This document shows positions 1,704-25,630 of a DNA stretch of 64,000 bases, one piece after another. Every line of letters begins with the position of its first letter. The stretch's first letter is position 1. This stretch comes from Mycobacterium lacus (GTDB lineage Bacteria > Actinomycetota > Actinomycetes > Mycobacteriales > Mycobacteriaceae). Made by a program: the position numbers and the translations under genes. The stretch is from contig NZ_AP022581.1 of assembly GCF_010731535.1 (NCBI RefSeq), positions 310,001-374,000 on the forward strand, read 5' to 3'. Under the pieces are notes generated by a model that searched no databases, was not told the origin of the DNA, and worked only from the letters and a program-made list of their open reading frames with translations.

Positions 1704-1757
1704 TCCGATCCCTTCACGCACCCCATAACCAAATTGCGAGATTGCTACTTCCGTAGC

Positions 1758-1774
1758 CGAGAATGATATTCTCG
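1758..1774. promoter_or_regulatory. Palindromic operator, perfect copy
   Basis: CGAGAATGATATTCTCG is a perfect 17-bp palindrome (half-sites GAGAAT and ATTCTC, 3-bp spacer). It lies 31 bp before the ATG at 1806 and 54 bp from the divergent SnoaL stub start. The same 15-bp core recurs at 25616-25630, with weaker copies at 7622, 7800, 25422 and 25444. Spacing and symmetry fit a dimeric TetR- or FadR-like repressor; I do not recognise the regulator. Confidence 0.65.
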
Positions 1775-1805
1775 CATCGGTGATGGGCGACGGGAAGGCA
1801 CCTTC

Positions 1806-2804
1806 ATGCTGTTGGAATTCGATGCCGATCAGCGGCTGTGGCAGCACACGGTGCGCGATGCCATCGCCAAGCAGTGTCCGCCGTCGCTGGTGCGTGCGGT
1901 GGCCGACGATGGCGTCGACCCGAGCCCGTTGTGGAACGTCTATGTGGAGCTCGGCTGGACCGAGCTCCACGAGCCGGCCAGCGCGGTGGAGCTGGCGATC
2001 GTGTTCGAAGAGCTCGGCCGGGCCACCGATCCCAGCCCCTTCCTGGCCACGATGAGCCAGTTCGCGCCGTTGGCGTGGGGTCACTTCGACCCGCACCAGT
2101 CGGGTGCCGCGGCGTACAACGGGGTGTCGGCGCACCGGGACGCCGATGGTTGGGTGTTGGACGGTAGCGCGCGCCATGTGCTCGACGGCGATCGCGCCGA
2201 CAAGCTGGCGGTGGTGACCGACGCCGGGGTGTTCATCGTCGGGTCCGATCAGGTGTCGGCCCGGCGTTGCGCCGTTTTCGATCCGGTGCTGCATGTCGCT
2301 GACCTGTCATTCTGCGGCGTCCGCGTGCCCGACAGCGTCCGGGTAACCGCTGACCGGGAGCGGGCGCATCATGTTGCGCTGACGGGTATGGCGATGACGA
2401 TGGTCGGCGCGTGCCAACGCATCCTCGATCTGGTCCTCGAGCATGTCCGCAGCCGTCATCAGTTCGGCGTGCCAATCGGCTCTTTCCAGGCCGTCCAGCA
2501 CAAGGCCGCGGACATGCACGTCGCTGTGGAGCGCGCTCGGGCGCTGGCGTACTACGCCGCGTTGACGATCGCCGCCGACGACCCGCGGCGGCGGTTGGCG
2601 GCCGCGATGGCCAAGGCATCGGCGGGTGAGTGCCAGTCGCTGGTGTTCCGCCACGGCCTACAGCTCTTCGGCGCCATGGGGTTCACCTGGGAGAACGACC
2701 TGCAGTTCGCGCTCAAGCGAGCCAAGGCCGGTGAGCTGATGCTGGGCGGCGCCGCCGAGCATCGCGCGCGGATCGCCGAGGAGTACCGTGCAGCTGACTT
2801 TTGA
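1806..2804 (+). CDS. Acyl-CoA dehydrogenase, short subunit of a probable heteromeric pair
   Basis: 332-aa flavin-dependent acyl-CoA dehydrogenase (FadE class) that would oxidise an acyl-CoA to the 2-enoyl-CoA. The C-terminal half is typical: RHQFGVPIGSFQAVQHKAADM, then LQLFGAMGFTWENDL in the helix-bundle domain. It is shorter than usual (about 380-400 aa) and the N-terminal part is less conserved. It overlaps the next acyl-CoA dehydrogenase by 17 bp. Paired short and long FadE genes of this kind often encode alpha2-beta2 enzymes acting on steroid side chains or other bulky acyl-CoAs (known for FadE28/FadE29-type pairs), so I infer a heteromer. ATG 1806 follows a GGGAAGG site. The operator at 1758 probably controls both genes. 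Substrate not determinable. Confidence 0.85.
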   Translation: MLLEFDADQRLWQHTVRDAIAKQCPPSLVRAVADDGVDPSPLWNVYVELGWTELHEPASAVELAIVFEELGRATDPSPFLATMSQFAPLAWGHFDPHQSGAAAYNGVSAHRDADGWVLDGSARHVLDGDRADKLAVVTDAGVFIVGSDQVSARRCAVFDPVLHVADLSFCGVRVPDSVRVTADRERAHHVALTGMAMTMVGACQRILDLVLEHVRSRHQFGVPIGSFQAVQHKAADMHVAVERARALAYYAALTIAADDPRRRLAAAMAKASAGECQSLVFRHGLQLFGAMGFTWENDLQFALKRAKAGELMLGGAAEHRARIAEEYRAADF

Positions 2805-3963
2805 ATCCGATGTCGAGGCGTTCCGTGCGGAGTTTGCGTCCTTCCTCGACGAGAATCTGCCTCCCGCAGGCGAAACGCGCGAGCGTCCCCGGTCGGTCTC
2901 CCATATGCCACCGTGGGCGCGTCGCTGGCAGCGCCTGCTCTTCGACAGCGGCTGGCTATTGCCCGGTCAGCCACCGGAATTCGGCGGCCGCAACGCGACC
3001 GTGCTGCAGCAATTCGTCTACCTGGAGGAACTCAGCCGCCGGCGGATCTACCACAGCTTCAACCCGCAGGGCGTGAACATCGTTGCGGCGTCACTGTTGT
3101 CGTTCGGCAGCGAGGAGCAAAAACACCGCTGGGCGGTGCCGATCCTCCGGGCCGAAATCACCGCCTCGTTGGGGATGAGCGAGCCGAGTGCAGGGTCCGA
3201 TCTGGCGTCGCTGCGTACTCGGGCTGTGCTCGAGGACGATCACTACGTCGTCAACGGCCAGAAAGTATGGACCTCCGGAGCACACGACGCCGACGTGTTG
3301 TTGACGTTTGTGCGAACCGATCCGGATGCGCCAAAACACAAGGGCATCAGCGCATTGCTGATACCGACCGAAACCCCCGGCATCGTGCGCCGGCCCTTCC
3401 CGTCGATCTGCGCGGCCGATGACCTGGACTTCAACGAGGTGTTCTTCTCCGACGTGCGGGTGCCGGCGGAGAACCTGGTTGGGCGGGAGAACCAGGGTTG
3501 GCAGGTGGCCAACGGGTCGCTTGGTCATGAGCGCACGATGATGTGGCTGGGCTTCGTGGATCGACTCGAGAACGTGATCGCCGACTTCCGTCCCACGACG
3601 GCGCGCGAGCGCGACCATTACTCCACCACGATCATGGACAAACATGCCCTCCGCCTGTTGGGTTCGGTGGCCCTGGCACGCGCCGCCCGCGGCGAAGACG
3701 ATGTGGCCGCGCTGTCGGTGCTCAAGCTGCTCGGTTCCGAAGCCGAGCTGCGCGCGTGCGAACAGGCCCTGGAGGCCGCCGGGCCGGACGGCCTGATCCA
3801 CCCCGCGCTGAGCGGTCCGTACGCGCCGATGAACCTCGACCACTATTTCGGCAGCTGGTTCGAGCGTTATGCCCGAAGCTTTTCCGGCACCATCGCCGGC
3901 GGAACTTCCGAGATCCAGCGCAACATCATCGCCCAGCGACTGCTTGGCCTCCCTCGCGGCTAG
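2788..3963 (+). CDS. Acyl-CoA dehydrogenase, long subunit
   Basis: 391-aa acyl-CoA dehydrogenase of near-normal length. Visible signatures are the flavin/substrate segment GMSEPSAGSDLASLRTRA, the middle beta-domain, and the C-terminal GTIAGGTSEIQRNIIAQRL. The position that carries the catalytic Glu in medium-chain enzymes (YEGTSQ) is Gly here (AGGTSE), so any catalytic base must lie elsewhere, as in other heteromeric FadE subunits. GTG 2788 follows GAGGAG and lies inside the end of the preceding gene, showing translational coupling. The gene ends just before a long hairpin at 3964-4025. Confidence 0.87.
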   Translation: MQLTFESDVEAFRAEFASFLDENLPPAGETRERPRSVSHMPPWARRWQRLLFDSGWLLPGQPPEFGGRNATVLQQFVYLEELSRRRIYHSFNPQGVNIVAASLLSFGSEEQKHRWAVPILRAEITASLGMSEPSAGSDLASLRTRAVLEDDHYVVNGQKVWTSGAHDADVLLTFVRTDPDAPKHKGISALLIPTETPGIVRRPFPSICAADDLDFNEVFFSDVRVPAENLVGRENQGWQVANGSLGHERTMMWLGFVDRLENVIADFRPTTARERDHYSTTIMDKHALRLLGSVALARAARGEDDVAALSVLKLLGSEAELRACEQALEAAGPDGLIHPALSGPYAPMNLDHYFGSWFERYARSFSGTIAGGTSEIQRNIIAQRLLGLPRG

Positions 3964-4025
3964 CGCGAGCAGACGCGAAAGCTCGCGACACGCCGACTAA
4001 TTGGGCGCCTTTGCGTCTGCTCGCG
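3964..4025. terminator. Convergent-end hairpin, GCGAGCAG family
   Basis: A 13-bp perfect stem (CGCGAGCAGACGC with its complement at 4013-4025) continues after a one-base bulge into AAAG/CTTT. It sits between the stops of two convergent genes (3963 and 4048). There is no long T-tract, as is usual for mycobacterial terminators. The stem base is shared with hairpins at 37926 and 42625. Confidence 0.65.
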
Positions 4026-4047
4026 GTAGACGCCGCGGGCGCGATTC

Positions 4048-4680
4048 CTAGACTGGGTCGAACTTGGTGATCAGCCAGTTGCCGTTGATCCGGGTCAAGC
4101 TCACCAGCACGCTGCTGGCCGCCATCGACGGATCGGGCCTGTCCTTGCTTGTGGTGCTCTGGTCGACGAACACCAGAACCACGGCCGAATCCGGATGCAA
4201 CTCCGATACCGCGGCGCCCATCACGTGGGCGGTCGTTTTCAGCGACTTCTGTTTGGCGGCCGGAGCCACGATCTGCTCGGTGAATTGGTTGTAGTACGAC
4301 AGGAATTCACCGGAAAGGTGCGACTTGGCGGTGGCAAAATCCTTGTCGAGCGATTCGGGCGAGTAGGACAGCAACGCGACCGTTCCGTTGGACGCCGCGC
4401 TGATCACCGCCCGGGCGACGGCGGGGTCAGTGCGTTGATTTGGCTGGTACCGCTTGAAGTACAGCCACGTCGTGGCACCGCCAGACGTCAGCAGCAACAC
4501 GACCAGAATCACGGGGACGAGTTTCACGTTGCGCAGCAGGCGCGACCGCCGGGCGGAGTCATCATCTTCGGCGGGCAGCTCCGTCGCCGACTCGTCGACC
4601 GCGGTTTCGGCCCCGTCCGGATCGTCCTCGACCGCCTCGGCGGCCTCGTTGGTTTCGATGTCGCGGGTGTCATCGGTCAC
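4048..4680 (-). CDS. Mce-associated membrane protein (Mas), downstream partner
   Basis: 210 aa from GTG 4680, whose GTGA overlaps the stop of the upstream partner. An acidic N-terminal tail (1-45) is followed by one membrane segment (about 54-74) and a C-terminal extracytoplasmic domain of about 135 aa that resembles an NTF2/SnoaL-like fold and ends [10 protein letters not shown]. This is the architecture of Mce-associated proteins found beside mce operons; a role in assembling or stabilising the importer is inferred from that family. It is paralogous to the protein at 19322-19960: [20 protein letters not shown] and KFDP are shared. An upstream start at 4749 is possible but would lie deep inside the partner gene. 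Confidence 0.82.
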
Positions 4681-5399
4681 GGTACGAACTCGACTTTCGA
4701 CATCTTGTACTGTCCGCCCTCTTCGGTCACGGTTACGCGGAGCCGCCACACACGCGGTTCGTCCTTGGCGCCTATGGAATTGGTGACCCGCGATGTCGCC
4801 GAAACCAGTACCGATGCGGAATGTTCGTGCATGGATTCGATGGCGGCCGCGTTGACCGTTCCCTGGGTGACCACTTTGGACTGCTCGACCACCGACGCGA
4901 AATCCTTTGCGCGCTGGCCGAAGTCGTCCCTGAACTGGCCGGTGGAGCTGTCAAGCACGCGCTGGACGTCTTCCTGGGCTTTCTTGAAGTCCATGGTGGT
5001 CATGTTGACGACGCCCTGCCTGGCCCCCGCGACGAAGTTCGCGGCGCGCTGCGTTCGCTCGGCGGCGTCTCGGTCTTGCCACAAGATGTATCCGCTGACT
5101 CCGGCAAGGGCGCAGATGAGAACGATCGTGGCCGCCTTGGAGATCGCCGACAGTGACGGCAACCGTCGTCGCCCGCCGGCCTGCCCGGATTCGGGTTCCG
5201 CGGCTGCGAGGGTCTTGTCGGCGGTCTCGGCGGCCTCGGCCGCCGCCGCGCGCCGCAGCCTGGCCGCGCGGGCGCGGGCGCGCGCGGCGGCGGCCAGCGC
5301 TTCGGCTTCGGCTGCTTCTGCTTCGGCCTCTTCGATCAACGCCATCGCGTCGGCCTTCGACGGGGCTAAATCTTCCGGCGGTTCTTTCGCCTCAGCCAT
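4677..5399 (-). CDS. Mce-associated membrane protein (Mas), upstream partner
   Basis: 240 aa. Residues 15-60 are an Ala/Glu/Arg-rich predicted coiled coil, followed by a membrane segment at about 89-107 and an extracytoplasmic domain ending [11 protein letters not shown]. It has the same plan as the protein at 19957-20784, which ends LKMSKVDFLQ, so the two are paralogues. Translation is coupled to the next gene through a GTGA overlap. ATG 5399 is chosen; GTG 5411 is an in-frame alternative. Because it faces away from the mce operon at 9282, it needs its own promoter in the 5400-5443 gap or transcription from the secreted-protein gene upstream. Confidence 0.8.
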
Positions 5400-5443
5400 C
5401 GCGCATACCACCCGTCACCAACATCATCGATCGAACTCCGGCA

Positions 5444-5872
5444 CTACCATCGCACGAGCGAGAAGGGGTAGGTGTGGGTGCCTCCTGGTCCGCCGCCGCA
5501 TCCCGTGTCGAACGTGGAGACCACCTGGCCGCCCAGTGAGGCTGCATCCCACGAATAGACGTCATGTGAGGGAAAGAACTGGATCACGCAGCGCACACCA
5601 TCGGGCACGTCGACGCTCATGGTGTAGCGACCATCCGCCAGGTAAGCATTTCCGTCGTAGGGCGCCGCTTGCCCGTTGGGTTGCGGTATCGCTTCTATAT
5701 GTAGGCATCCCGGCTCGTTGCTGGTGCACGCCCGAATCGCCCAAAGCCAGCTGTGGCCAGGATCGCGGTCGGTGTCCAACCGGTAGTTGCCGACCACCAT
5801 GTCCGCGCGGGCGGCCGGCGTAAGAGTCAGCGTGGCCATGGCAAGCCCAAGGCTTAGGGCTAATGTCCTCAC
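5444..5872 (-). CDS. Small secreted protein of unknown function
   Basis: 142 aa from GTG 5872, which has a GGGAG site 8 nt upstream; ATG 5887 is the alternative. The signal peptide is clear (RTLALSLGLAMATLTLTPAARA, cleavage expected after ARA). The mature part is about 115 residues with Cys in RACTSNEPGC, GVRCV and TGCGG, suggesting disulfides in the cell envelope. It lies 44 bp upstream of the Mas pair on the same strand and is likely co-transcribed with it. Similar small exported proteins surround the second Mas pair. I do not recognise a named family. Confidence 0.75.
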   Translation of the reverse strand: MRTLALSLGLAMATLTLTPAARADMVVGNYRLDTDRDPGHSWLWAIRACTSNEPGCLHIEAIPQPNGQAAPYDGNAYLADGRYTMSVDVPDGVRCVIQFFPSHDVYSWDAASLGGQVVSTFDTGCGGGPGGTHTYPFSLVRW

Positions 5873-6020
5873 CGGTCTGTCTCCCATCTCTGCGAACGCG
5901 CTCGGCGGGCTTGGCCTGAATATAAGGCGCGGTCACGCTGAACACGACTACTCGGAAAAATCTCGGCACTCACGGCCCACCATCTCTGGCGGTGCCCCCA
6001 AGTTGGGTGGCGAAGCGGCC

Positions 6021-6828
6021 CAGGCCCGACGGGTCGTGGTTTGCCATCGCCTACGAAATCCAAACCGCTCGCCCTCCTTGAAGTGGATCCCATCAGTTCG
6101 ACGTCTTCGGAGAAGGTCTGGCCATCACCGGGCGCTGCGGTGAAGTAGCGCAGGAACTCTTCGGCCGCGGGGTCGAGCGGGGTTTCGCGCCGCGTGTTGA
6201 GTAGCGCTCGTAGGCCGGGGTGCTGTGAAAGCCATTCCAGCGCATGGGCGGTCAGGACCGTCGTGGTCTCGAAGCCACCACGGATGACAAACCCCAGGTT
6301 CCCGAATGTTTCCAGATCGGGAGCGGGCTCGCCGTCGATGCGCATTTCGAGCAGGGCGCTGACCAGACCGGGTCGGGGATTGGCGCGTATCTCGATCATG
6401 TTGTTGACCAGATCGAGCCCGATCTGCGGTGCAACTCGGCAACTCGTTGGATGTCCGGGCTGTGCTCGGGGGTGTAGACCGCGGCATGCGTCGGCTCGCT
6501 GTAGATCTTCCATTTCTTCAACGGGATGCCCATGAGCGCCAGCGGCAGAACGGCGGGCACGACGTTGGCCAGATCGTCGACGAATTCGATGCTGCCTTCC
6601 TCGATCCTGTCGTCGAGGCGGGCGCGCGCCACCTCGTCGATGAATGGCGCCCAGCGCCTGACAGCGGCCGGTGACAGATAAGGGGTTCAGGACGTTGCGA
6701 TAGATGCGGTGCTCAGGGCCGTCCATCTCGAGGATGCCCCCGCGCACCCCGTTGATGCGCCTAACCGTCGGGATCGAAATGCCTTTCTAGCCACGGCGTT
6801 CGTTGTTGACGTCGTGGTCGTTGGACAC
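6021..6828 (-). pseudogene. Cytochrome P450, degenerate
   Basis: P450 fragments lie in several frames. A GTG start at 6828, 17 bp after the SDR stop, opens a 13-codon piece with a stop. Then come RRINGVRGGILEMDGPEHR, a frameshift to LANVVPAVLPLALMGIP, another shift to an I-helix region with GGFETTTV, then EEFLRYFTAAPG (K/ExxR-to-beta region) and DVELMG. Homology ends around ANHDPS (near 6021-6045) and no FxxGxHxCxG haem loop follows, so the 3' end is deleted. The N-terminal 80 or so residues are also missing. It was presumably in an operon with the SDR gene. The 150 bp up to the next gene hold nothing recognisable. Confidence 0.85.
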
Positions 6829-6844
6829 CGCCGGGCACTCCTGC

Positions 6845-7546
6845 TCAGGTGTTTCGGCCGCCGTTGACGCCCAAAATCTGCCCGGTGATGTAGCCGGCCT
6901 CCTCGGACACCAGAAAGGCGCACGCCGCGGCGATGTCTTCCGGCCTGCCCATCCGGCGTACCGGGGTCTTCGCGATGTTCTGCTCGACGTCGCCGAGGAA
7001 CCCCCGCGCCTCGGCGGAGCGCAACATCGGGGTGTCGATGAAGCCCGGTGGCACGGCGTTGACCGTGATGCCGCTGGGCCCGTACTCGAGCGCCAAGGAT
7101 TTAGTGAGCCCGTTGACGGCTGATTTCGCCGCCACATAGTGAGCCATGTAGGGCTGGCCGGAATGCGCGCTCGACGACGAGATGTTGACGATCCGGCCCC
7201 ATCCGGCCTCGATCATGTCGGGCACCACCGCCTGGATCGTATGGAAAACGCCGTTGAGGTTGACGTCGATCACGCGCTGCCAGTCCTCGAACGTGATGTT
7301 GCTGAAACGCTGGAATCCGTCCAGGCCGGCGGCGTTGACCAGCACGGTGACCGGTCCCAGCCGGCCGCGGATTTCCGACAGCGCGGCATCCACCTGCGCG
7401 CGCTCCGTGACGTCGGCGGTGTAGGCGAGGTCCGTGTCGGATGGTTGGAGGTCGATGGTCGCCACGTCGAGGCCGTCGGCGCGCAGGCGCTGCGCGACGG
7501 CCCGGCCGATGCCGGAGCCGCCGCCGGTGACGACGGCGGTCTTCAC
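6845..7546 (-). CDS. Short-chain dehydrogenase/reductase (SDR)
   Basis: 233-aa classical SDR, intact. The NAD(P)-binding motif TGGGSGIG is at residues 8-15, NAAG is in the expected place, and the catalytic Ser-Tyr-Lys triad appears as ISSSSAHSGQPYMAHYVAAK. The C-terminus GYITGQILGVNGG is the usual family end. It would oxidise or reduce a hydroxy/keto group, in context probably a 3-hydroxyacyl-CoA or a ring hydroxyl. Start GTG 7546 follows AAAGG. Its former operon partner, the P450 at 6021-6828, is dead, while this gene has no visible lesion. A degenerate copy of the GAGAAT palindrome lies 76-90 bp upstream. Confidence 0.88.
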   Translation of the reverse strand: MKTAVVTGGGSGIGRAVAQRLRADGLDVATIDLQPSDTDLAYTADVTERAQVDAALSEIRGRLGPVTVLVNAAGLDGFQRFSNITFEDWQRVIDVNLNGVFHTIQAVVPDMIEAGWGRIVNISSSSAHSGQPYMAHYVAAKSAVNGLTKSLALEYGPSGITVNAVPPGFIDTPMLRSAEARGFLGDVEQNIAKTPVRRMGRPEDIAAACAFLVSEEAGYITGQILGVNGGRNT

Positions 7547-7621
7547 GTGGCGACCTTTGCGTACGCCTTTACGTATAACAGCCAGGCCGTCTCAATCATA
7601 AAGAATCTTCCTTTCAATTGT

Positions 7622-7636
7622 GAGAACCTTACTCTC
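7622..7636. promoter_or_regulatory. Palindromic operator, degenerate copy
   Basis: GAGAACCTTACTCTC keeps 10 of 12 half-site bases of GAGAAT-N3-ATTCTC with the same 3-bp spacer. It lies between the divergent SDR (start 7546) and the aldehyde dehydrogenase stub (start 7815). Weak on its own; supported by the perfect copies at 1759 and 25616. Confidence 0.4.
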
Positions 7637-7799
7637 ATCTGCGAGCGGCCGGCAAGCTTGCCCGAAAACTGCTGCTCGGCCTGCGCCGAGAGGTCCACGG
7701 CGCCTACCGCTGAGCGATTGCTTAGCTGGCGGGCAGGTCTGCGCCGTTTCAAGGACCTTCTTGAATTCGCTGACCTCGAATGTAAGATTCGCCAAGAAG

Positions 7800-7814
7800 G
7801 AGAATGAAATTATC
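7800..7814. promoter_or_regulatory. Palindromic operator copy overlapping a ribosome site
   Basis: GAGAATGAAATTATC matches the perfect palindrome at 1759 in 13 of 15 bases and 11 of 12 half-site bases. It directly abuts GTG 7815 and overlaps the AAGGAG ribosome site of the aldehyde dehydrogenase stub. An 8-bp inverted repeat (CCTTCTTG at 7756, CAAGAAGG at 7793) encloses the region just before it. Confidence 0.4.
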
Positions 7815-8009
7815 GTGATTGTTACCACACAAGGCGCCCGCACGCCTTCGCTGGCCGACCGCCGGCTGTTGATCAACGGCCGACTCGTCGCAGTCGGGCA
7901 GATCTTCTCGTCGATCAATCGCGCGACCGGTGCGGTCCTGGGACACGCCCCGGATGCCGGCGTGGCGGAGGCCGACGCCGCCGGGCCGGCTGGAGGAGCC
8001 CCGGCATGA
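7815..8009 (+). pseudogene. Aldehyde dehydrogenase, N-terminal stub
   Basis: From GTG 7815 (AAGGAG upstream) about 50 codons read like the start of an NAD-dependent aldehyde dehydrogenase: DRRLLINGRLV, SINRATGAVLGHAPDA, then EADAA. The frame then runs into GPAGGAPA and stops at 8009, overlapping the start of the CoA-transferase gene. About 440 residues, including the catalytic Cys and Glu, are gone. A deletion fused the first 50 codons to the leader of the next gene, which may now depend on the old aldehyde dehydrogenase promoter. Confidence 0.65.
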
Positions 8010-9211
8010 ATCCGCTGGCAGGCATCCGCGTGCTGGAGGTCGCCATGTACGGGTTCGTCCCGTCGGCGGGTGCGGTGCTGGCCGAATGGGGCGCCGACGT
8101 GGTCAAGGTCGAGCACGCCGTGACCGGCGATCCGCAACGCGGACTCCGGCAGACCGGCATGTTGCGGGTCGAAGGCGACCCGAACCCCAACATCGAACAC
8201 GCCAACCGCGGCAAGCGCAGCATCGGACTGGACATGTCGGTACCCGAGGGCAAGGAGGTGCTTTACGAGCTGGCGCGCCGTTCCGACGTGTTCCTGACCA
8301 GCTTCCTGCCCGGTGCGCGGCAGAAGTTCGGCATCGACGTGGACGACATTCGCGCGGTGAACCCGAAGATTATCTACGCCCGAGGCAGCGCGCTCGGCCC
8401 CCGCGGCGCGGAGTCCGTCAAGGGCGGCTATGACATGACCGCCTTCTGGTGCCGGGCCGGAACCGCCGCCACCATCACCCCGATGGGCTACGACGGGATG
8501 ATCAACCCGCCGGGGCCGGCGTACGGCGACACCATCTCCGGCACCAACCTCGCCGGTGGCATCGCGGCGGCGTTGCTCAAGCGCGAGCGTACCGGTGAAC
8601 CGTCCGTCGTCGACGTGTCGCTGCTGGGCAGCGGCCTGTGGTCCTTGGGCCACACGGTGGCGTTGACCATGCACCTGGGTCAGCTCATGCAAGCGCCGCC
8701 GCCGGGCATACACGGCTCCCCGGTCAACCCGCTCGTGGGGGTGTACCCGACCTCCGACGGCCGCTACATCTCGTTGGTGATGATGCAGCCCGGCAAGTTC
8801 TGGGCCGACGTGTGCCGGCATATCGATCGGCCGGAACTGGCCGACGATCCCCGGTTCGCGACCGCGGAGAAGATCGCCGCAAACACGGCAGATGCGGTGG
8901 AGATCTTGACCAAGGTCATCGCAACCCGCACGCTTGCCGAGTGGAGCGAACGCTTTGCGACGCTCGCCGGGCCGTGGGCGCCGGTGCAGGACACCCTGCA
9001 AGCGGCCGACGACGCCCAGGTCCGCGCGAACGAGTATGTGCTGCGCGCAGGCGAACTCGACCTGGTCGCCAACCCGGTCCAATTCGATGTCACCGCACCG
9101 CACACCGGGCCGGCACCCGGATTCGCCGAGCAGACCGACGAGATCCTGTTGGAACTCGGACTCGATTGGGACCGCATCATCGAACTCAAGACGGCCGGCG
9201 CCGTCACTTGA
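8006..9211 (+). CDS. CaiB/BaiF family III CoA-transferase
   Basis: 401 aa, full length. It would move CoA from a donor acyl-CoA to a carboxylic acid through an aspartyl-CoA anhydride; the conserved Asp is D175 in AYGDTISG. Other family marks are GIRVLEV near the N-terminus, LAEWGADVVKVEH, NRGKRSIGLDM and RRSDVFLTSFLPG. ATG 8006 overlaps the stop of the aldehyde dehydrogenase stub by 4 bp. Only 70 bp separate it from the first YrbE gene, so it may be the first gene of the mce transcript and could activate an imported acid. Racemase activity is an alternative family function. Confidence 0.87.
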   Translation: MNPLAGIRVLEVAMYGFVPSAGAVLAEWGADVVKVEHAVTGDPQRGLRQTGMLRVEGDPNPNIEHANRGKRSIGLDMSVPEGKEVLYELARRSDVFLTSFLPGARQKFGIDVDDIRAVNPKIIYARGSALGPRGAESVKGGYDMTAFWCRAGTAATITPMGYDGMINPPGPAYGDTISGTNLAGGIAAALLKRERTGEPSVVDVSLLGSGLWSLGHTVALTMHLGQLMQAPPPGIHGSPVNPLVGVYPTSDGRYISLVMMQPGKFWADVCRHIDRPELADDPRFATAEKIAANTADAVEILTKVIATRTLAEWSERFATLAGPWAPVQDTLQAADDAQVRANEYVLRAGELDLVANPVQFDVTAPHTGPAPGFAEQTDEILLELGLDWDRIIELKTAGAVT

Positions 9212-9281
9212 GTACAGCAGGGAGCCGGAGATCCTGAAATGCTTGAGCCGAACGCCTGTCTCGTAACGTCGGAAGGATCTG

Positions 9282-10106: not shown

Positions 10107-10119
10107 CGGGGGAGATGCG

Positions 10120-10965: not shown

Positions 10966-10985
10966 GAGAGGATGGGAACAGAAGA

Positions 10986-18753: not shown

Positions 18754-18770
18754 AGCCGTGAACGAGCCGG

Positions 18771-19298: not shown

Positions 19299-19321
19299 CG
19301 GGTGCTCCTCGTGCGATGAGA

Positions 19322-19960
19322 TCACAGCGGATCGAACTTTGCGATCAGCCAGGAACCCTTGACCTTGGTCAGCGTGACAAGGACGCTGATAGCGGTCGTC
19401 AGGGTTTCGGACTTTATCTTGCTTGCAGTGGTCTGATTGAGGAACACCAGCACAACGGCCGAATCCGGGTGTAACTCCGACGCGGCGGCCCGAACCACCT
19501 TGGCTGTCGTCGTCAGTTGCCCATCCCGTGCCGCCGGCGCCAGGCCCTGTTGGCTGAATTTGTCGTAGTAGGCCAGGAAGCCGCCGGTGAGACGCGATTT
19601 CGCGGTAGCGAAATCGTGCTCAAGGTTGTCGTAGGAGTACGACAGCAGCGCCACGGCGCCGTCGCAGGCCGCCTGGATTGCCCGGTGCGCTGCCGAGTCG
19701 TCGATCTGCCGATCCGGTCGGTACTGAGTGACGAACAAGCCGACAGCGACTCCCATCGCGGCAACGACCACGGCCGCCGCGACCATTGGTCGCCACCTGG
19801 TCAAACACCGTCGGGTCCAGCGTGCGATCGCGGCCAGTCCGCGGGTGCCCGCCGATCCCGCCGAAGCGGGCGGTATCTCCATCTCGCCGGGGGACGGAGT
19901 TTCGGTGCTGCCGATCGGGGCTTCCATGGTGTCGGCCGATGACGTGTGCTTGACAATCAT
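19322..19960 (-). CDS. Mce-associated membrane protein (Mas), downstream partner, second copy
   Basis: 212 aa. A Ser/Pro/Glu-rich cytoplasmic part (1-55), a membrane segment at about 58-78 and an extracytoplasmic domain ending KGSWLIAKFDPL. It is a clear paralogue of 4048-4680: both have HDFATAKS or [20 protein letters not shown] and the same end. It overlaps its upstream partner by 4 bp (start 19960, partner stop 19957). Probably a helper of the adjacent mce system. Confidence 0.83.
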   Translation of the reverse strand: MIVKHTSSADTMEAPIGSTETPSPGEMEIPPASAGSAGTRGLAAIARWTRRCLTRWRPMVAAAVVVAAMGVAVGLFVTQYRPDRQIDDSAAHRAIQAACDGAVALLSYSYDNLEHDFATAKSRLTGGFLAYYDKFSQQGLAPAARDGQLTTTAKVVRAAASELHPDSAVVLVFLNQTTASKIKSETLTTAISVLVTLTKVKGSWLIAKFDPL

Positions 19961-20784
19961 TGCAGGAAGTCAACTTTCGACATTTTGAGCTGGCCGCCGT
20001 CCCGCTCGATGTTGACGCTGAGCCGCCACATGGCCGGTGGTCGTTTCGTGTTATCAGGATTGGTGACATCGGATTTCGCCGCGACGAGCACGACTGCCGA
20101 GTTGTCGGTCACCGATTCGACGGCGACGGCGTCCACGGTCACTTTGCTGCTGACCCTTGAATCCTCCGCCTGCTTGGCGAGAAGGCTTGAGGTCGCTGAC
20201 AGTTGGGCCTTCAGCTGGCCCGTGGAGGCGTCGATGATGCGCTGGAAGTCCTCCCTGGCGTGGTTGGCGTCGATCGACATCAGCGTCGTGACCCCGAGAC
20301 GTGCCGCCGCAGCGTACTCCCGGGCGAGCTGTCGCTTGTGCATGACGGTGTGGTGCTGCCACACCACGTAGCCGTTCGCGGCGAGCGAGACGCAGGCGAG
20401 CACGGTCGCAGTGGTCGCGGCCACCGCCTTCCGTCCTGGGCGGCCCAGCCGGCGTAACCGCGACGGCGACTTTGTGGGGCGGCGGTCAACGCGGCCGGCG
20501 CCACTGGTTTCTGTGGTTCCGGCTGCCCGGCGCAGGCGCGCGACGCGGGCCCGGGCCGCCGCGGCGCGCGCTTCGGCCCGGGCCACTTCGTCCTCTGCGT
20601 CGGCTGCCGAAATGGGCGTCTCGTCGCCGGAACCGATCCGGGAGCGCGGCGGTGGTTGGTTGGGGCCGGGCATGTCCCCGGGGTCGGCACGATGGTCGGC
20701 AGGCGGTTCCGACGAACGCCGCCGCGACCGCCGGGTGGACCTTTCCGGTCGCTCCGGATCGTGCACGGAGAAGCAGCCTATCAC
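19957..20784 (-). CDS. Mce-associated membrane protein (Mas), upstream partner, second copy
   Basis: Up to 275 aa from GTG 20784; ATG 20673 (starting MPGPNQPPPRS) is equally plausible and would remove a low-complexity basic leader. An Ala/Arg/Glu-rich helix at about 60-90 precedes a membrane segment at about 119-141 and an extracytoplasmic domain ending LKMSKVDFLQ. Paralogue of 4677-5399. First gene of the minus-strand unit that runs to 18771; any promoter lies at 20785-20960, shared with the divergent secreted protein. Confidence 0.8.
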   Translation of the reverse strand: MIGCFSVHDPERPERSTRRSRRRSSEPPADHRADPGDMPGPNQPPPRSRIGSGDETPISAADAEDEVARAEARAAAARARVARLRRAAGTTETSGAGRVDRRPTKSPSRLRRLGRPGRKAVAATTATVLACVSLAANGYVVWQHHTVMHKRQLAREYAAAARLGVTTLMSIDANHAREDFQRIIDASTGQLKAQLSATSSLLAKQAEDSRVSSKVTVDAVAVESVTDNSAVVLVAAKSDVTNPDNTKRPPAMWRLSVNIERDGGQLKMSKVDFLQ

Positions 20785-20923
20785 TTCCGGCCAGGGCGTA
20801 CCGCGGTCATCGGAGGAGGGCTTGTGTGGCTCTTAACATGCGGAAATACCCGTGCGTCAGCCGACGCGGTGCGGCGGCATTCGGGGGCGTTCGATGGGTC
20901 GAGGGCGGTTGCGCCACGTGATC

Positions 20924-20940
20924 TTCTCCAAGAAGGAGAA
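20924..20940. promoter_or_regulatory. Inverted repeat in a divergent promoter region
   Basis: TTCTCC-AAGAA-GGAGAA is a perfect inverted repeat with 6-bp arms and a 5-bp spacer, 42 bp before GTG 20982 and between divergent genes. It could be an operator or part of a leader hairpin. It is related to, but not the same as, the GAGAAT palindrome. Confidence 0.3.
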
Positions 20941-20981
20941 TTCCCTTTTCAGTCCCTTTTCGGGTGTGGCAGAGTGAGGGG

Positions 20982-21383
20982 GTGCGATCGATCGTGGCAC
21001 TGGTTGCCGCGTTGCTCGGTGCCGGCGTGCTGGCGGCGCCGCGCGCCTCCGCCGAGCCAACGGTGTGCGACTACCCGGCCTGCACCCCTGGCATCATGCC
21101 GCACGTCGTCCTCGGCGCCCCGTGCGACAACACCACGTACTACGTTTTCGGGACCGCGGACTATTACGTCTCCTTCGCCTCACAGCCGGGACGGCTGATG
21201 TTCTGCGGCTCGCCGAGAAGATACGAGCCGCGATGGTTCCGATCACCTCCGATGGCGGGAGTCAAGGAGGAGGGCGCCGACTGCACCCGGTACCAGAACT
21301 ACGTCGCGCAAGCGCCCGATGGCCTGTTCCTGGTCTGCATTGGCCATGACGGTGTGACGACCTGGGTCCGCGCCGACACATAA
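20982..21383 (+). CDS. Small secreted protein of unknown function
   Basis: 133 aa from GTG 20982; GTG 20964 is an in-frame alternative. Signal peptide RSIVALVAALLGAGVLAAPRASA, then a mature domain of about 110 residues with several Cys (CDYPACTPG, GAPCDN, MFCGS, ADCTRY, LVCIGH), suggesting a disulfide-rich exported protein. It diverges from the second Mas unit and converges with the TetR gene at 21392 (8 bp apart). No family recognised. Confidence 0.72.
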   Translation: MRSIVALVAALLGAGVLAAPRASAEPTVCDYPACTPGIMPHVVLGAPCDNTTYYVFGTADYYVSFASQPGRLMFCGSPRRYEPRWFRSPPMAGVKEEGADCTRYQNYVAQAPDGLFLVCIGHDGVTTWVRADT

Positions 21384-21391
21384 CGCCGCGA

Positions 21392-21973
21392 TTAGTCGAC
21401 CGCATCGATCAGCCGGCGGGTGATGCGCCCCAGCTGGGCGCGCAGGGTGTCATCGTCGACGTCGGCCACCAGCGGATGCAACACTCCAACCGCGATGGCG
21501 CCCGACAGCATCGCCGCCGACACCCGCGCGTCGTCGGCGGCGTCATCGAGCAGCACACCGTACAGCCGCTGGATGAATTGCCGGAAGGGTTCGTGCTCGG
21601 CCAGCAGCCGCACGACGACGGGGTCGAACTGTAGGGTGCTCGCCGCGCCGCGACGCTCGACGGCCAGGTCGATGATGCGGTCGAGCAGCTCCTCGCGTGC
21701 CTTGCCCCGGTGGTCGTTGGCCTCGGCCGCCTCCAGAGCCTCCTCGAGCCGGCCGAGTTCGCGTTCCGTGAGCGCGATGACGATCTGCTCCTTGGTCTTG
21801 AACTGGTGGTAGACGGCCGCCTTCGTGACTCCGACGGCATCGGCGATCATCTGTAACGACGTTCCGCCGACCCCGTGCTCGGCGATCAACTTCAGCGCGG
21901 CGTCCAGGGTACGTGTCTGCGCGGCGCTGCGCGTGATGAAACGAAACCCGCTCTGGAGCCTTGGAGAAACCAC
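21392..21973 (-). CDS. TetR-family transcriptional regulator
   Basis: 193 aa from GTG 21973. The N-terminal helix-turn-helix is clear: TLDAALKLIAEHGVGGTSLQ then ADAVGVTKAAVYHQFKTKEQ. The C-terminal ligand domain is divergent, as usual. A perfect 14-bp palindrome (TAGCCGATCGGCTA) lies 11 bp before the start and is a good candidate for autoregulation. Target genes beyond itself are unknown. Confidence 0.88.
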   Translation of the reverse strand: MVSPRLQSGFRFITRSAAQTRTLDAALKLIAEHGVGGTSLQMIADAVGVTKAAVYHQFKTKEQIVIALTERELGRLEEALEAAEANDHRGKAREELLDRIIDLAVERRGAASTLQFDPVVVRLLAEHEPFRQFIQRLYGVLLDDAADDARVSAAMLSGAIAVGVLHPLVADVDDDTLRAQLGRITRRLIDAVD

Positions 21974-21983
21974 AACGGGAGCC

Positions 21984-21997
21984 TAGCCGATCGGCTA
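21984..21997. promoter_or_regulatory. Palindrome, probable TetR operator
   Basis: TAGCCGATCGGCTA is a perfect palindrome 11-24 bp upstream of the TetR start at 21973, where self-binding would block transcription. The rest of the 223-bp gap to the P450 stop shows nothing else I can identify. Confidence 0.5.
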
Positions 21998-22196
21998 CGC
22001 GCTGGTCCTATCGTGCCGACCGGTGGACGCGTGGGTGTGCGTATCGTCGCCGCCTGCCCGGGCACTTGGGGGCCGCTGATGCAGTCACGAGATCGGTGGT
22101 GCCCTGGGCTGTGGTAGTCACATCTGCCCCACGTATCCCGGGCCCGAGCGCCTCACCGCGACAACGTAAGGCACGCAAGGGATTTGTCGCTGCGAC

Positions 22197-23471
22197 CTAA
22201 CCTTTCGGCGTGAACGTGAGGCAAAGTTTGGTCAGTCCGCGCAGAATATACGTCGGTTCGTACGTGTATCGGCGATGGTCGGCCGGCCCATGTTCGTCCT
22301 CGTTGATCTTGATGTCGGCCATGCGGTCCAGGATGCGTTCAATGGAGACCCGGCCCTCCACCCGGGCGAGCGGCCCACCGGGACACGAGTGCACTCCGCG
22401 TGCGAACGCCATGTGTTCGCGGACGTTTTTTCGATCCAGCCGGAACTCGTGGGGGTCGTCGAACCGGCGCGGATCGCGGTTGGCCGCACCCGGTAACACC
22501 ATCACGACGGTGCCGGCGGGTATGTCGACGCCGCCGACCCTGGTGGCCCTGCGGGCCAGCCGCGAGTCGCTCTTGACGGGGCTGTCGATGCGCAGCGACT
22601 CCTCGATGAACCCGGGGATCAGGCTGCGGTCGTCACGTACGTGTCGCTGGATGTCGGGCCGCTCCGCCATCACCTGTAGCGCGGCACTGAGCAGCTTGGC
22701 CGTCGTTTCCTGTCCGGCCGCGAAGAGGAACGTGGCTGAACGAACGACCTCGATGACCTCGGGTGTGGATCCGTCCGGATACTTCGCGGTCGCCAGCGCG
22801 GTCAGGACGTCGTCGCGCGGTTGGCGTCGCCGGTCCTCGATATAGGAGCCGAACTTTTCGTCGAGCCACTCCAGCGGGTTGACGCCGACCGACTCATGGT
22901 CCAGCGCGCCCACGCGGCCCGGGCGGTCGGCACCCAAGACGACGCGAAACGCCTTATGGTCCTCCTCGGGGACACCGAGCAAATCGGCGATCACCAACGT
23001 TGCGAACGGCTTTGAGTATTCGCCAATGAACTCGCACTCGCCGTTGGCCAGAAACTCGTCGAGCTGGCGATCGGCCAGGCGCCACATGAACGCCTCGTTC
23101 TGTTTCAGCCGGCTTGGGGTCAGCAGCCGGCTCAGCAGCGATCGAGCGCGGGTATGGTCCGGTGGATCCATGGTCACCATGTGCTCGAACATCGGGAAGT
23201 AACTGCGGTGCTGCTCGATCTGCGGGCCGATGTCGTCGCCGTCGGGGTGGAAGGGCAGTGGGGGAAACGGCCCGCCGAGCGCGACGATGTTCGAGAAGGT
23301 GTCCGGGTCCTTATAGACCTCGGTGGCTTCTTCGTAGCCGGTGACGGCGACGACGCCGTAGTGGGGCAGTCGAAGCACGGGGTTTTGACTGCGCAGGTAA
23401 TCGAAGTAGGGGTGCGGATCGCGAACGAGAGACGGATCGGTGAAGAAGTCGATCGTTTCAAACTCGCTCAT
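22197..23471 (-). CDS. Cytochrome P450
   Basis: 424 aa from ATG 23471 (GGGGAGG upstream); an upstream start at 23501 has no ribosome site. A complete soluble bacterial P450: I-helix AAGQETT, EESLR as the ExxR motif, and the haem loop FARGVHSCPGGPLAR with the Cys ligand. It would hydroxylate an unknown substrate using ferredoxin and a reductase encoded elsewhere. Its start is 123 bp from a divergent TetR gene, with an inverted repeat between them, so that TetR is the likely controller. CYP family not assigned. Confidence 0.92.
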   Translation of the reverse strand: MSEFETIDFFTDPSLVRDPHPYFDYLRSQNPVLRLPHYGVVAVTGYEEATEVYKDPDTFSNIVALGGPFPPLPFHPDGDDIGPQIEQHRSYFPMFEHMVTMDPPDHTRARSLLSRLLTPSRLKQNEAFMWRLADRQLDEFLANGECEFIGEYSKPFATLVIADLLGVPEEDHKAFRVVLGADRPGRVGALDHESVGVNPLEWLDEKFGSYIEDRRRQPRDDVLTALATAKYPDGSTPEVIEVVRSATFLFAAGQETTAKLLSAALQVMAERPDIQRHVRDDRSLIPGFIEESLRIDSPVKSDSRLARRATRVGGVDIPAGTVVMVLPGAANRDPRRFDDPHEFRLDRKNVREHMAFARGVHSCPGGPLARVEGRVSIERILDRMADIKINEDEHGPADHRRYTYEPTYILRGLTKLCLTFTPKG

Positions 23472-23492
23472 GTCGTGCGCGCCTCCCCAACT

Positions 23493-23510
23493 GCTGAGCA
23501 CCTGCTTAGC
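23493..23510. promoter_or_regulatory. Imperfect inverted repeat between P450 and TetR
   Basis: GCTGAGC-ACCT-GCTTAGC has 7-bp arms with one mismatch, 22 bp upstream of the P450 start and 84 bp from the divergent TetR start at 23595. It is a candidate operator for that TetR. Confidence 0.42.
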
Positions 23511-23594
23511 ATGGCGGTGATGCCAGGGTCAAGGTCACCTACGCCCGGCAGCACGGAGGTCGGGTTTGCGGTCGGGCAGGTACGGTGTCAAGGC

Positions 23595-24296
23595 ATGAGA
23601 TCGGCCCGCAGGATTGGGGCGCCGGACGCGAAGAACCGCGGCCTGCTGCTCGACGCGGCCGAGCGGTTGATGGTCGAGGAGGGCTACGCCGCGGTCACGT
23701 CGCGCCGCCTCGCGCACAAGGCGGGGCTGAAACCTCAATTGGTGCACTATTACTTCCGCACCATGGAGGAGCTGTTCGTCGAGGTCTTCCGCCGCCGCGC
23801 CGAAGAAGGTCTCGAGGTGCAGGCGCGAGCGCTGCAATCGCCCCAACCGCTATGGGCGCTGTGGAGGTTCGGCACCGATCCGGCGTTCACCCGAATCTCG
23901 ATGGAATTCATGGCGCTCGCCAACCACCGCAAGCAGATGCGAGCCGAAATCGCTTATTACGCTGAACGTTTCCGCGAGGAACAACGAAAAGCGGTGACGG
24001 CTGCGCTGCAGCGGTATGGGGTGGACAGCCAGGATGTGCCGCCGGTGGTGTGGACGGTGATCATGACCAGCTTGTCGCGGCTACTGGTGCTCGAGCAGGC
24101 TATCGGCATGTCGGCCGGGCATGCCGAAACCTTTGAGCTGGTCGAAAGTTATCTGCGCCGCCTGGAAGGCGAGCCGCAGCCGATTGCGGACATACCGCGG
24201 TCCTGGATGGTTCACCAATGGCGCAGCGAGCAGAGCACGCCCTTGGGTCCGTCCTTGGATACGACGACGGTCCCGTCCACCGACAGGTCGCAATGA
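23595..24296 (+). CDS. TetR-family transcriptional regulator
   Basis: 233 aa from ATG 23595; the frame is open upstream but starts inside the P450 gene. The N-terminal DNA-binding region is typical: GLLLDAAERLMVEEGYAAVTS, then AHKAGLKPQLVHYYFRTMEE. The ligand domain ends near residue 200 (ESYLRRLEGE). About 30 further residues (SWMVHQWRSEQSTPLG onward) look non-conserved and are antisense to the 3' end of the exported-protein gene, an 85-bp convergent overlap. Likely regulator of the divergent P450. Confidence 0.85.
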   Translation: MRSARRIGAPDAKNRGLLLDAAERLMVEEGYAAVTSRRLAHKAGLKPQLVHYYFRTMEELFVEVFRRRAEEGLEVQARALQSPQPLWALWRFGTDPAFTRISMEFMALANHRKQMRAEIAYYAERFREEQRKAVTAALQRYGVDSQDVPPVVWTVIMTSLSRLLVLEQAIGMSAGHAETFELVESYLRRLEGEPQPIADIPRSWMVHQWRSEQSTPLGPSLDTTTVPSTDRSQ

Positions 24297-24649
24297 AACT
24301 GCGGCGTGCCGGGTTCGGTACCGCTGCTGGCCGAGACCATCGCCCACTGGTCGGGGTTCGCCAGCTCCAGTTCGAAGCTCCACGGCTTGCCCGGCGCGAT
24401 ATCGGCCTGGATGTTGGGGGTGAACGAGTAGGGGTTGTGGCTGTAGTCGGCAAAGATGGCCGGCTCGTGATCGATGTAGTAGATGTCGGCGTAGATCGGA
24501 TTCTGGGCGGTGACGGTGTACGTGACGTGATGCATGACGGGGTCGTCGGCATGTGCTTGTCCGGTGCTCGTGACTAGACCGGTCCCCCCCAGAAGCACCG
24601 CACCGAGCACGGCTGATCCCGCGCCCGACAACCTGTACGCGGTGGTCAT
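24212..24649 (-). CDS. Small exported protein, MmpS-like fold possible
   Basis: 145 aa from ATG 24649 (AAGGAG 4 nt upstream), whose ATGA overlaps the stop of the enoyl-CoA hydratase. Signal peptide of about 35 residues ending TGQAHA. The mature part reads VTYTVTAQNPIYADIYYID then CDLSVDGTVVVS, a pattern reminiscent of the extracytoplasmic domain of MmpS proteins. This assignment is tentative. Last gene of a two-gene unit; its 3' end overlaps the convergent TetR gene. Confidence 0.75.
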   Translation of the reverse strand: MTTAYRLSGAGSAVLGAVLLGGTGLVTSTGQAHADDPVMHHVTYTVTAQNPIYADIYYIDHEPAIFADYSHNPYSFTPNIQADIAPGKPWSFELELANPDQWAMVSASSGTEPGTPQFHCDLSVDGTVVVSKDGPKGVLCSLRHW

Positions 24650-25392
24650 GTCGCTCCTTCGGCTGCCGTACGTGGACTGGCGGTGCGGTTCATGACCCGC
24701 TCTGCGGCCCGCCAATGTGCGTCGGCAACCCACAGCCGTGCAAAGGATGCTATCGCCTCGTCCGGCGAAACTCCGCTGATGACGCGCTTTATCTCGGTCG
24801 CCGGGTGGTGAGCCAGCGACCGCGCGATCGATCGCCAGCCCGCGTCGAACGATGAGCGGGGCAGCACCAGATCGACCAGGCCGATCCGCTCGGCCTCGAC
24901 CGCGTCGAGCGCGGTTCCGGTGCCCGCCAGAAGCAGCGCCTTGCCCCTTCCGACGAGCGCGGCCAGTCGCTCGGTGCCGCCCCAGGCCGGCATGATCTCC
25001 AGCTCCACTTGATTGAAGGCGATCTTGATGTCGTCGGCCGCCACCCGGATGTCGGCGGCGACCGCGACTTCGGCGCCGCCGCCGAACGCGTGGCCGTTCA
25101 GCGCGGCGACCACCGGAGCCGGGAACCGGGCGAGCTGATCGCAGATCGACCGCATCCGCTTGGCCATCGCGGCGGCGTCCTCCTCCGTCCGCAGAGTGCT
25201 CAGCTCCTTGAGGTCGCCGCCCGAGACGAAGGCCCGATCGCCGGCACCCTTGATCACCAGGGTTCGCGCGCCTGATGCCGCGTCGAGCGCCTGTTCCAGC
25301 CGCCGCATGGTGTCCAGTGCGATGGCATTGCGCGCGTGGGGACGATCGATGGTTACCACGGCCAACCCGTCATCGACCTCCAGCTCCACCAT
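24646..25392 (-). CDS. Enoyl-CoA hydratase/isomerase (crotonase family)
   Basis: 248 aa. Crotonase-fold enzyme, most likely hydrating a 2-enoyl-CoA. Visible marks: VVTIDRPHARNAI near the N-terminus, the oxyanion region FVSGGDLKEL, and FGGGAEVAVAADIRVA with a Glu at the usual first acid, followed by VELEIMPAWGGTERL containing the second. It is translationally coupled to a small exported protein. Two weak GAGAAT-type sites lie 30-66 bp upstream, in a 260-bp region shared with the divergent amidohydrolase. Confidence 0.87.
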   Translation of the reverse strand: MVELEVDDGLAVVTIDRPHARNAIALDTMRRLEQALDAASGARTLVIKGAGDRAFVSGGDLKELSTLRTEEDAAAMAKRMRSICDQLARFPAPVVAALNGHAFGGGAEVAVAADIRVAADDIKIAFNQVELEIMPAWGGTERLAALVGRGKALLLAGTGTALDAVEAERIGLVDLVLPRSSFDAGWRSIARSLAHHPATEIKRVISGVSPDEAIASFARLWVADAHWRAAERVMNRTASPRTAAEGAT

Positions 25393-25421
25393 GCGTGCTT
25401 GCTCCTTGGCCGAACGCAGCC

Positions 25422-25458
25422 GATATTGGCATTCTCTTATCGGGAGAATAACATCATC
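25422..25458. promoter_or_regulatory. Two tandem degenerate GAGAAT-type sites
   Basis: GATATTGGCATTCTC (25422-25436) and GAGAATAACATCATC (25444-25458) each keep 10 of 12 half-site bases, with the intact halves facing each other. They lie 30-66 bp upstream of the hydratase start. The perfect copy for the divergent gene is 158 bp away at 25616. Confidence 0.45.
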
Positions 25459-25615
25459 GCCGCAGGTCCAGAAGTTTCGTCGCCCGGGATCGAGGTGTCC
25501 GAGTGCGGACTGCCACCGGGTAGCGGACCGACAAACCCGGTGAACCGGCCACCGCCACCGTCAAGATCGTCATGTGCTGACTGCGTCGCTACCACGTTGC
25601 GGTCGACCATCAGCG

Positions 25616-25630
25616 GAGAATAGTATTCTC
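25616..25630. promoter_or_regulatory. Palindromic operator, perfect copy
   Basis: GAGAATAGTATTCTC is identical in both half-sites and spacing to the site at 1759-1773. It ends 22 bp before ATG 25653, just upstream of the AAGGAGG ribosome site, so binding would block transcription of the amidohydrolase gene. Confidence 0.65.

Follow-up and report, generated by a model that had tools for sequence, protein, structure and literature searches.

The 64,000-nucleotide stretch of the Mycobacterium lacus genome considered here (the window, bases 310001-374000 of a single contig of 5,092,988 bases) carries two perfect copies of a 15-bp palindrome, GAGAAT-N3-ATTCTC. One lies 32 nt before the start of a half-size acyl-CoA dehydrogenase gene that is followed by an overlapping partner, the other 22 nt before an amidohydrolase gene. 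A first-pass annotation of the window had taken these copies as the marks of a scattered catabolic regulon around the mce locus. The distribution of the palindrome over the genome and its conservation in relatives were analyzed. The palindrome is found at promoters and not at random positions, and it is conserved upstream of orthologues, which supports the regulon. The regulator, which that annotation had not recognised, is probably the product of a TetR-family gene outside the window (genome 279129-279788), whose promoter carries a perfect copy. The location around the mce locus holds within the window only; elsewhere in the genome, copies were found at 205-286 kb, 4.19 Mb and 4.78 Mb. Genes, sites and recurrent targets are collected in Table 1.

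Occurrence of the palindrome in the genome

Six perfect copies are present in the genome, for 0.053 expected under a third-order Markov model derived from 172 kb (P(>=6) = 2.9e-11), and five of the six are clustered inside 131 kb. The reversed control pattern has no perfect copy genome-wide. The one-mismatch class by itself is not significant (5 copies for 2.2 expected, P = 0.07). With up to two mismatches, the window contains 8 matches, compared to a mean of 0.85 and a maximum of 3 in 100 dinucleotide shuffles; one of them, at 42012, falls within a called open reading frame (ORF). Genome-wide this class is not in excess (59 places, against about 68 from the window shuffle rate; 5 for the reversed pattern). 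Weak copies were therefore rejected as individual evidence, and a single weak copy counts only when it is conserved. That they are no commoner than the shuffle rate would suit a palindrome arising by chance or as a compositional artefact. The number of perfect copies, their position at promoters and their conservation before orthologues leave practically no room for this explanation. For the perfect copies, which the first-pass annotation had already held very unlikely to be fortuitous, a chance origin is refuted.

Promoter position and target genes

The position of perfect copies with respect to genes was analyzed in 14 other genomes, with gene starts called by a script of our own and not by a standard gene finder. 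Eight genomes chosen among those listed made up the discovery set (all sites of G033, G020, G089, G107, G028, G100 and G150, and three of the five sites of G056; G085, G007 and G156 were left out). The hold-out set consisted of all sites of six genomes hand-picked among those listed (G195, G379, G022, G141, G064 and G060; G004, G048, G383 and G401, also listed, were left out). All 54 perfect copies of the discovery set lie at most 350 nt from a called start, and 41 at most 60 nt (random, 3.8%); 2 are inside a called ORF. The hold-out figures are 41/42 and 32/42 (random, 4.8%), with one copy inside a called ORF. For the two sets combined, 95 of 96 copies are found within 350 nt of a called start and 73 within 60 nt. 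In most cases the genes concerned recur from genome to genome: acyl-CoA dehydrogenases, PF04909 amidohydrolases, P450s, ferredoxin/CoA-synthetase and thiolase. The usual distance to the start codon is 18-60 nt, and many palindromes have a -10-like word, TANNAT, at their centre (read by eye).

Both perfect sites of the window recur in other species. A perfect copy also precedes the orthologue of the 1806 gene in 6 discovery and 6 hold-out loci, and in 13/13 orthologous promoters of the discovery and hold-out loci the 25616-type copy stands 22 or 23 nt ahead of the amidohydrolase start. The 332-residue product of the 1806 gene has IpdE2 as its best NCBIfam match, far under the cut-off. Targets seen in a single genome were a CoA transferase (PF01144), an enoyl-CoA hydratase, a luciferase-like monooxygenase, an acyl-CoA thioesterase and a periplasmic binding protein. 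Two genomes share a site in a comparable position, and in one of them a pyruvate:ferredoxin-oxidoreductase-type protein was identified there. Seven of the 42 hold-out sites have no counterpart gene in our genome at 50% identity.

Table 1. Putative operators, genes and recurrent targets (window positions unless marked genome; recurrent targets are named by the gene of our own genome, at genome positions, with families by Pfam)
Feature	Position	Strand	Remarks
Perfect primary operator (putative)	1759..1773		GAGAATGATATTCTC; 32 nt before acyl-CoA dehydrogenase start
Degenerate second operator (putative)	1738..1752		GAGATTGCTACTTCC; 8/12 arm letters, 21 bp from the 1759 primary
Acyl-CoA dehydrogenase, 332 aa	1806..2804	+	C-terminal domain only
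Acyl-CoA dehydrogenase partner, 391 aa	2788..3963	+	overlaps 1806 gene
Short-chain dehydrogenase (SDR)	6845..7546	-	possible target
Weak operator pair (candidate)	7601..7636		7622-7636 GAGAACCTTACTCTC; partner 7601-7615 (8/12) at -21
Weak operator pair (candidate)	7778..7814		7800-7814 GAGAATGAAATTATC; partner 7778-7792 (8/12) at -22
CoA-transferase family III (CaiB-like)	8006..9211	+	possible target
Enoyl-CoA hydratase	24646..25392	-	likely target of weak tandem pair
Two degenerate operators (candidate)	25422..25458		25422-25436 and 25444-25458; 10/12 arm letters each, exactly 22 bp apart
Perfect primary operator (putative)	25616..25630		GAGAATAGTATTCTC; 22 nt before amidohydrolase 25653 start
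PF04909 amidohydrolase-type protein	25653..26834	+	closest solved chain 4dzi; also PtmU3, DitZ
TetR-family regulator, 219 residues	genome 279129-279788	-	30 kb upstream of window
Perfect palindrome copies	genome 205111, 279911, 285768, 311759, 335616, 4778140		311759 is window 1759; 335616 is window 25616
One-mismatch palindrome copies	genome 208604, 279069, 309750, 317800, 4185216		317800 is window 7800
Recurrent target: TetR gene			divergent acyl-CoA dehydrogenase in other genomes
Recurrent target: P450 / SDR	277730 / 276875
Recurrent target: CMD or Rieske oxygenase	285220 or 283938		divergent from amidohydrolase 286021
Recurrent target: acyl-CoA dehydrogenase	311806 (window 1806)		divergent from amidohydrolase 308479
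Recurrent target: amidohydrolase	335653 (window 25653)
Recurrent target: ferredoxin	204744		divergent from acyl-CoA synthetase
Recurrent target: thiolase	208644
Recurrent target: P450	291150
Recurrent target: APH-family protein	4777091		own-genome probable start downstream of site
Recurrent target: flavin reductase			4185216 copy before own gene; perfect copy in G107

The divergent promoters of amidohydrolase 308479 and of the 1806 gene, with a putative operator copy at each gene, are separated here by 2233 bp, against roughly 200-330 bp in five relatives; a DUF222-family gene region (window 35-1392) lies between them. A possible origin of the 309750 copy as a duplicate of the 1759 copy via this region was rejected, because five of six relatives (L088, L094, L099, L114 and L121) have a similar AAGAA(T/C)-N3-(A/G)TTCTC before the 308479-type amidohydrolase while the DUF222 region is absent (read by eye).

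A TetR gene as candidate regulator

The product of the 279129 gene has a TetR N-terminal DNA-binding domain (PF00440, E 1.5e-7, 31.5 bits for a cut-off of 24). The perfect palindrome at 279911 precedes its start codon by 122 nt. Between the TetR gene and a P450 gene (277730-278929; nearest solved relative CYP130) there is a one-mismatch copy. This arrangement was followed through the 80 closest TetR orthologue loci (90-97% identity, all Mycobacterium or Mycolicibacterium records). A perfect copy starts 129-160 nt upstream of the matched stretch in 79 of them, the exception being M. tilburgii (L072). On the P450 side a copy with at most one mismatch is present in 71/80. A further perfect copy, corresponding to the site of the CMD/amidohydrolase pair, is found about 7.1-8.8 kb upstream, again in 71/80, and 5 of the other 9 loci are too short. 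At the TetR promoters the half-sites are constant and the spacers variable: in 77 distinct rows aligned independently of the site, the arms are 98-100% conserved. On the P450 side, mean conservation is 97% in the arms and 65% in the flanks; the arm value is biased upwards, as these copies were chosen for at most one mismatch. Within 400 nt upstream of the best 29 TetR loci of a wider, order-level sample (76-100% identity, our own included), 25 have a perfect copy and 3 a one-mismatch copy. Two TetR orthologues (79-84% identity to the query) occur in G100, G085, G016, G173, G022 and G180; in G100 the copy L119 has a perfect promoter site.

Presence of the regulator gene and presence of the palindrome were then compared. 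In a genus sample of 198 genomes, with an orthologue defined as a match at E < 1e-80, 160 genomes have both the TetR gene and a perfect copy, 3 the TetR gene only, 3 a copy only and 32 neither (Fisher 4.9e-30, uncorrected for relatedness); about four in five of the sampled Mycobacterium genomes (163/198) carry the regulator gene. In the TetR-only genomes, the TetR gene is preceded by a one-mismatch copy (G055 and G177) or by a decayed one (G088). The copy-only genome G069 has its TetR gene broken across two contig ends, one piece of which carries a perfect copy. The order sample (249 genomes, some shared with the genus sample) behaves likewise: all 29 genomes with an orthologue (at least 76% identity) have 2-10 copies, and 13 of the 220 without one have any copy (14 copies in total, for a background of 0.06 per genome; G266, with a 35% match, was counted as lacking the TetR gene). 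Overall, TetR and site presence agree in 192/198 genus genomes and 236/249 order genomes.

This agreement also bears on the possibility that a different regulator binds the palindrome and that TetR 279129 is merely one of its targets, since a mere target would equally have the site before its gene. G147, with 8 sites and no orthologue detected, would fit such a scheme, and the gene run behind the 4778140 site includes, downstream, a second TetR gene (4774371-4774991). This second TetR was rejected as the regulator by its distribution: it is matched (E <= 1e-50) in 79 of 198 genus genomes only and therefore cannot explain the sites, being absent from at least 84 of the 163 site-bearing genomes, among them G006, G020, G028 and G033 with 7-9 sites each. 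From the distributions of these two TetR genes, the regulators compared with the sites in this way, a different regulator appears improbable.

We regard it as highly probable, from these sequence comparisons, that the palindrome is the operator of the one TetR encoded at 279129-279788, predicted to repress its own gene and a set of genes for oxidative and CoA-thioester catabolism as long as no intermediate of the pathway releases it. The prediction of occlusion as the means of repression, of autoregulation and of such a release is drawn from copies 18-60 nt before starts, which would overlap the core promoter, and from the -10-like centre. A TetR dimer would bind the perfect copy, and an acyl-CoA or related pathway intermediate would act as inducer, releasing TetR from the DNA. 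Several observations weigh against this reading. G147 has its 8 copies with no orthologue detected (contamination 7%, 700 contigs), and G043 has one copy and no TetR orthologue. G026 and G062 have the TetR gene and one perfect copy each, with none (up to one mismatch) within 400 nt of TetR. The last of the 29 order-sample loci, the second TetR copy of G100 (L206), has no copy with at most one mismatch. The AlphaFold model of a TetR orthologue (P0003; pLDDT 75, pTM 0.60) is of modest confidence and names no ligand. Foldseek ranks YvdT and fatty-acid FadR regulators as its ten closest structures (TM 0.46-0.56, rmsd 7.7-9.0 A), matches too weak to point to a ligand.

A second, phased copy of the palindrome

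The 12 arm letters were scored at each distance from 61 sites (54 perfect ones in the 8 discovery genomes and 7 of our own). A distance of 22 bp is outstanding (z 4.2), followed by 21 bp. The scores were also separated by target, with 51 sites assigned to groups by hand (4 of them one-mismatch, from the P450/SDR or thiolase groups; 13 sites classed as others and L098:2543 were set aside). An offset of +-21 or +-22 is the best in 6/9 groups and second or tied second in 3, and 0/20000 circular-shift permutations reach the observed maximum. For the 1759 target group, -21 is the best offset in 7 loci and again in 6 hold-out loci. The 42 hold-out sites give 22 bp as the best offset once more (z 4.8; 0/5000 permutations reach the observed phasing score). 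At +-21/22, 23 of these 42 sites have at least 7/12 letters, where other distances give 2.0 sites on average, and 12 sites have at least 8/12, against a mean of 0.43 elsewhere (largest 3). Hold-out sites are largely orthologous to discovery sites, so this replication tests species and not new promoters.

From these comparisons the operator appears bipartite, made of a strong palindrome and a degenerate copy two helical turns away. The degenerate copy would be bound by a second TetR dimer, on the face of the DNA that the first one occupies, and the pair would cover the core promoter, keeping RNA polymerase out. In L088, L094 and L099, GAGAAT-like half-sites recur in 21-bp steps before the acyl-CoA dehydrogenase gene, with three consecutive ones in L099 (by eye), which suggests longer phased arrays in some species.

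Not all groups follow this pattern, and the exceptions count against a bipartite operator. Another offset (-19, 27 or 28) scores higher in 3/9 discovery groups; in the hold-out set the top offset is at 21-22 bp in 7/13 groups, several of them single-site, and elsewhere in 6/13. The second copy is weak (often 6-8/12 letters) and stands on either side of the primary; before amidohydrolase 25653, where it shares bases with the ribosome-binding site, it may be due to chance. Such weakness, and the groups in which the second copy is not at the best offset, would be natural if one dimer per promoter sufficed and the 21-22-bp copy were a relic or a promoter element. Single 14-bp palindromes are described for KstR and KstR2, with KstR bound as a dimer (PMC3068626, PMC1995591), and the second copy before the TetR gene holds a -10-like TACAAT (read by eye). 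The distance nevertheless replicates in the 42 hold-out sites. It recurs when GAG/CTC letters alone are scored at the site level, at 21 bp in discovery (all 54 perfect sites) and 22 bp in hold-out, and these letters are unlike those of a -10 or -35 element. The second copy occurs both upstream and downstream of the primary, and the two weak copies before the enoyl-CoA hydratase gene of the window stand exactly 22 bp apart and are kept in 7/18 loci. A single sufficient dimer is accordingly the less favoured possibility, though one we take seriously.

Weak copies within the window

Weaker copies with the same spacer had been proposed before the SDR gene, an aldehyde dehydrogenase stub and the enoyl-CoA hydratase gene. 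All are present (7622/7800, 20936 and 25422/25444), and conservation in relatives separates them. For the 25422/25444 pair, both copies are kept in the 7 loci just cited (our own included) and neither in 5; the promoter-proximal copy is present in 12/18 (ten identical, two variant) and the other copy alone in 1. This weak pair before the enoyl-CoA hydratase gene likely fits the operator pattern. The 7622 and 7800 copies sit between the SDR gene and the CaiB-like gene, the latter being the first large gene of a + strand run that continues with an MlaE-permease gene (9363) and onward to 18753 (the mce locus). Both copies are kept in 4/20 loci only (our own included) and neither in 16, and the SDR/CaiB pair would fit the operator pattern less surely than the enoyl-CoA hydratase one.

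The 20936 copy was dropped as a member. Its neighbourhood is conserved as GGAGAATT, which is present too in G009, a genome without the TetR gene, and the copy is for this reason probably another conserved element. The ORF that follows, the 129-residue stub, has no Pfam match, so that the name aldehyde dehydrogenase is not confirmed. In the window the element around GGAGAATT is found at 20919-20960, with TTCTCC a few bases ahead, before the 129-residue ORF, and several relatives have a similar one. Partly seen in a genome without the TetR gene, it is a candidate operator of another regulator.

Outside the window, a two-mismatch copy, GAGAATTACGTTATC, stands at genome 302569-302583, 57 nt before a ChsH2-OB/thiolase fusion gene. 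Signs of gene decay in the regulon were observed at three places: AMP-binding-enzyme domains in two ORFs (window 26889-27891), an acyl-CoA synthetase fragment adjoining the 205111 operator (genome 205504-205764), and acyl-CoA dehydrogenase domains spread across three ORFs (genome 280129-282004).

Possible substrate and significance

The PF04909 proteins at the sites offer a clue to the substrate. Protein 286021 matches DitZ (8uyr) with E 6.6e-110 over about 400 residues, with DDH, HIG, SEGG and DYPHSDS stretches aligned, and PtmU3, a protein of diterpenoid biosynthesis, with E 2.4e-31; protein 308479 matches 8sm6-8sm9. PF04909 proteins like 8sm6-8sm9 are grouped, PtmU3 included, as amidohydrolase-related dinuclear oxygenases (AROs) in PMC10811679. 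With the AROs (PMC10811679, PMC10401708), protein 286021 shares, at the level of sequence, PF04909 and the similarity to PtmU3 and DitZ. Open-access literature searches on PtmU3 and on DitZ listed no paper on DitZ. The presence together of ARO-like proteins, the half-size acyl-CoA dehydrogenase nearest to IpdE2, P450s, a Rieske oxygenase and Mce genes suggests, as a guess, a polycyclic terpenoid- or steroid-like substrate, perhaps taken up by the neighbouring Mce system. Going further, one may speculate, with more doubt than conviction, that this is a third genus-wide TetR regulon of polycyclic catabolism beside those of KstR and KstR2. Two repressor dimers, cooperating at each promoter on one strong and one weak palindrome, would control the breakdown of di- or triterpenoids of plant or microbial origin through P450s, a Rieske oxygenase and amidohydrolase-type dinuclear oxygenases, with an Mce importer.

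A large block of unassigned catabolic genes thus gains a candidate regulator, a list of targets and a rule for the operator, which can be used for finding more members of the regulon. De-repression of one gene would reveal the pathway, and the bipartite operator makes a specific and cheap prediction on TetR binding.

Comparison with known TetR systems

The KstR and KstR2 cholesterol regulons are the closest known counterparts, and the palindrome might simply belong to one of them. The kinds of genes are similar (acyl-CoA dehydrogenase pairs, thiolase, P450, CoA transferases), and the operators are placed alike, often 20-40 nt before start codons. KstR2 sites are given at 22, 39, 22, 23 and 82 bp before starts (PMC3068626), and the KstR palindrome is described as partly overlapping the -10 region (PMC1995591). 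The palindrome differs, however, from TnnAACnnGTTnnA (KstR) and AnCAAGnnCTTGnT (KstR2), as reported in PMC3068626 and PMC1995591, in letters and in spacer, and the TetR protein scores 21.2 bits on the NCBIfam KstR model, whose cut-off is 280. On motif and model score, KstR and KstR2 were rejected as the regulator; membership in their regulons is very improbable. What is shared (PMC1995591, PMC3068626) is the TetR family, a site at the regulator's own promoter, a short palindrome, catabolic targets and wide conservation. The system described here has another palindrome, a 3-bp spacer, another regulator and an apparent second degenerate operator. The predicted regulon would work like that of KstR, yet it is not KstR's. 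The open-access literature, to which the search was confined (subscription papers being outside its scope), yielded no report of the motif or of the regulator. TetR regulons of such a kind are known; the one described here is new, and its operator layout is unusual if the binding holds.

Two dimers on one operator have precedents among TetR proteins. QacR places two dimers on each operator, at overlapping sites. DarR likewise has two TetR dimers per operator, which consists of a palindrome and of a pseudo-palindrome in which one half-site is poor (PMC10636190). The two DarR sites overlap (PMC10636190), whereas the two 15-bp sites predicted here would be separate, with 6-7 bp between them.

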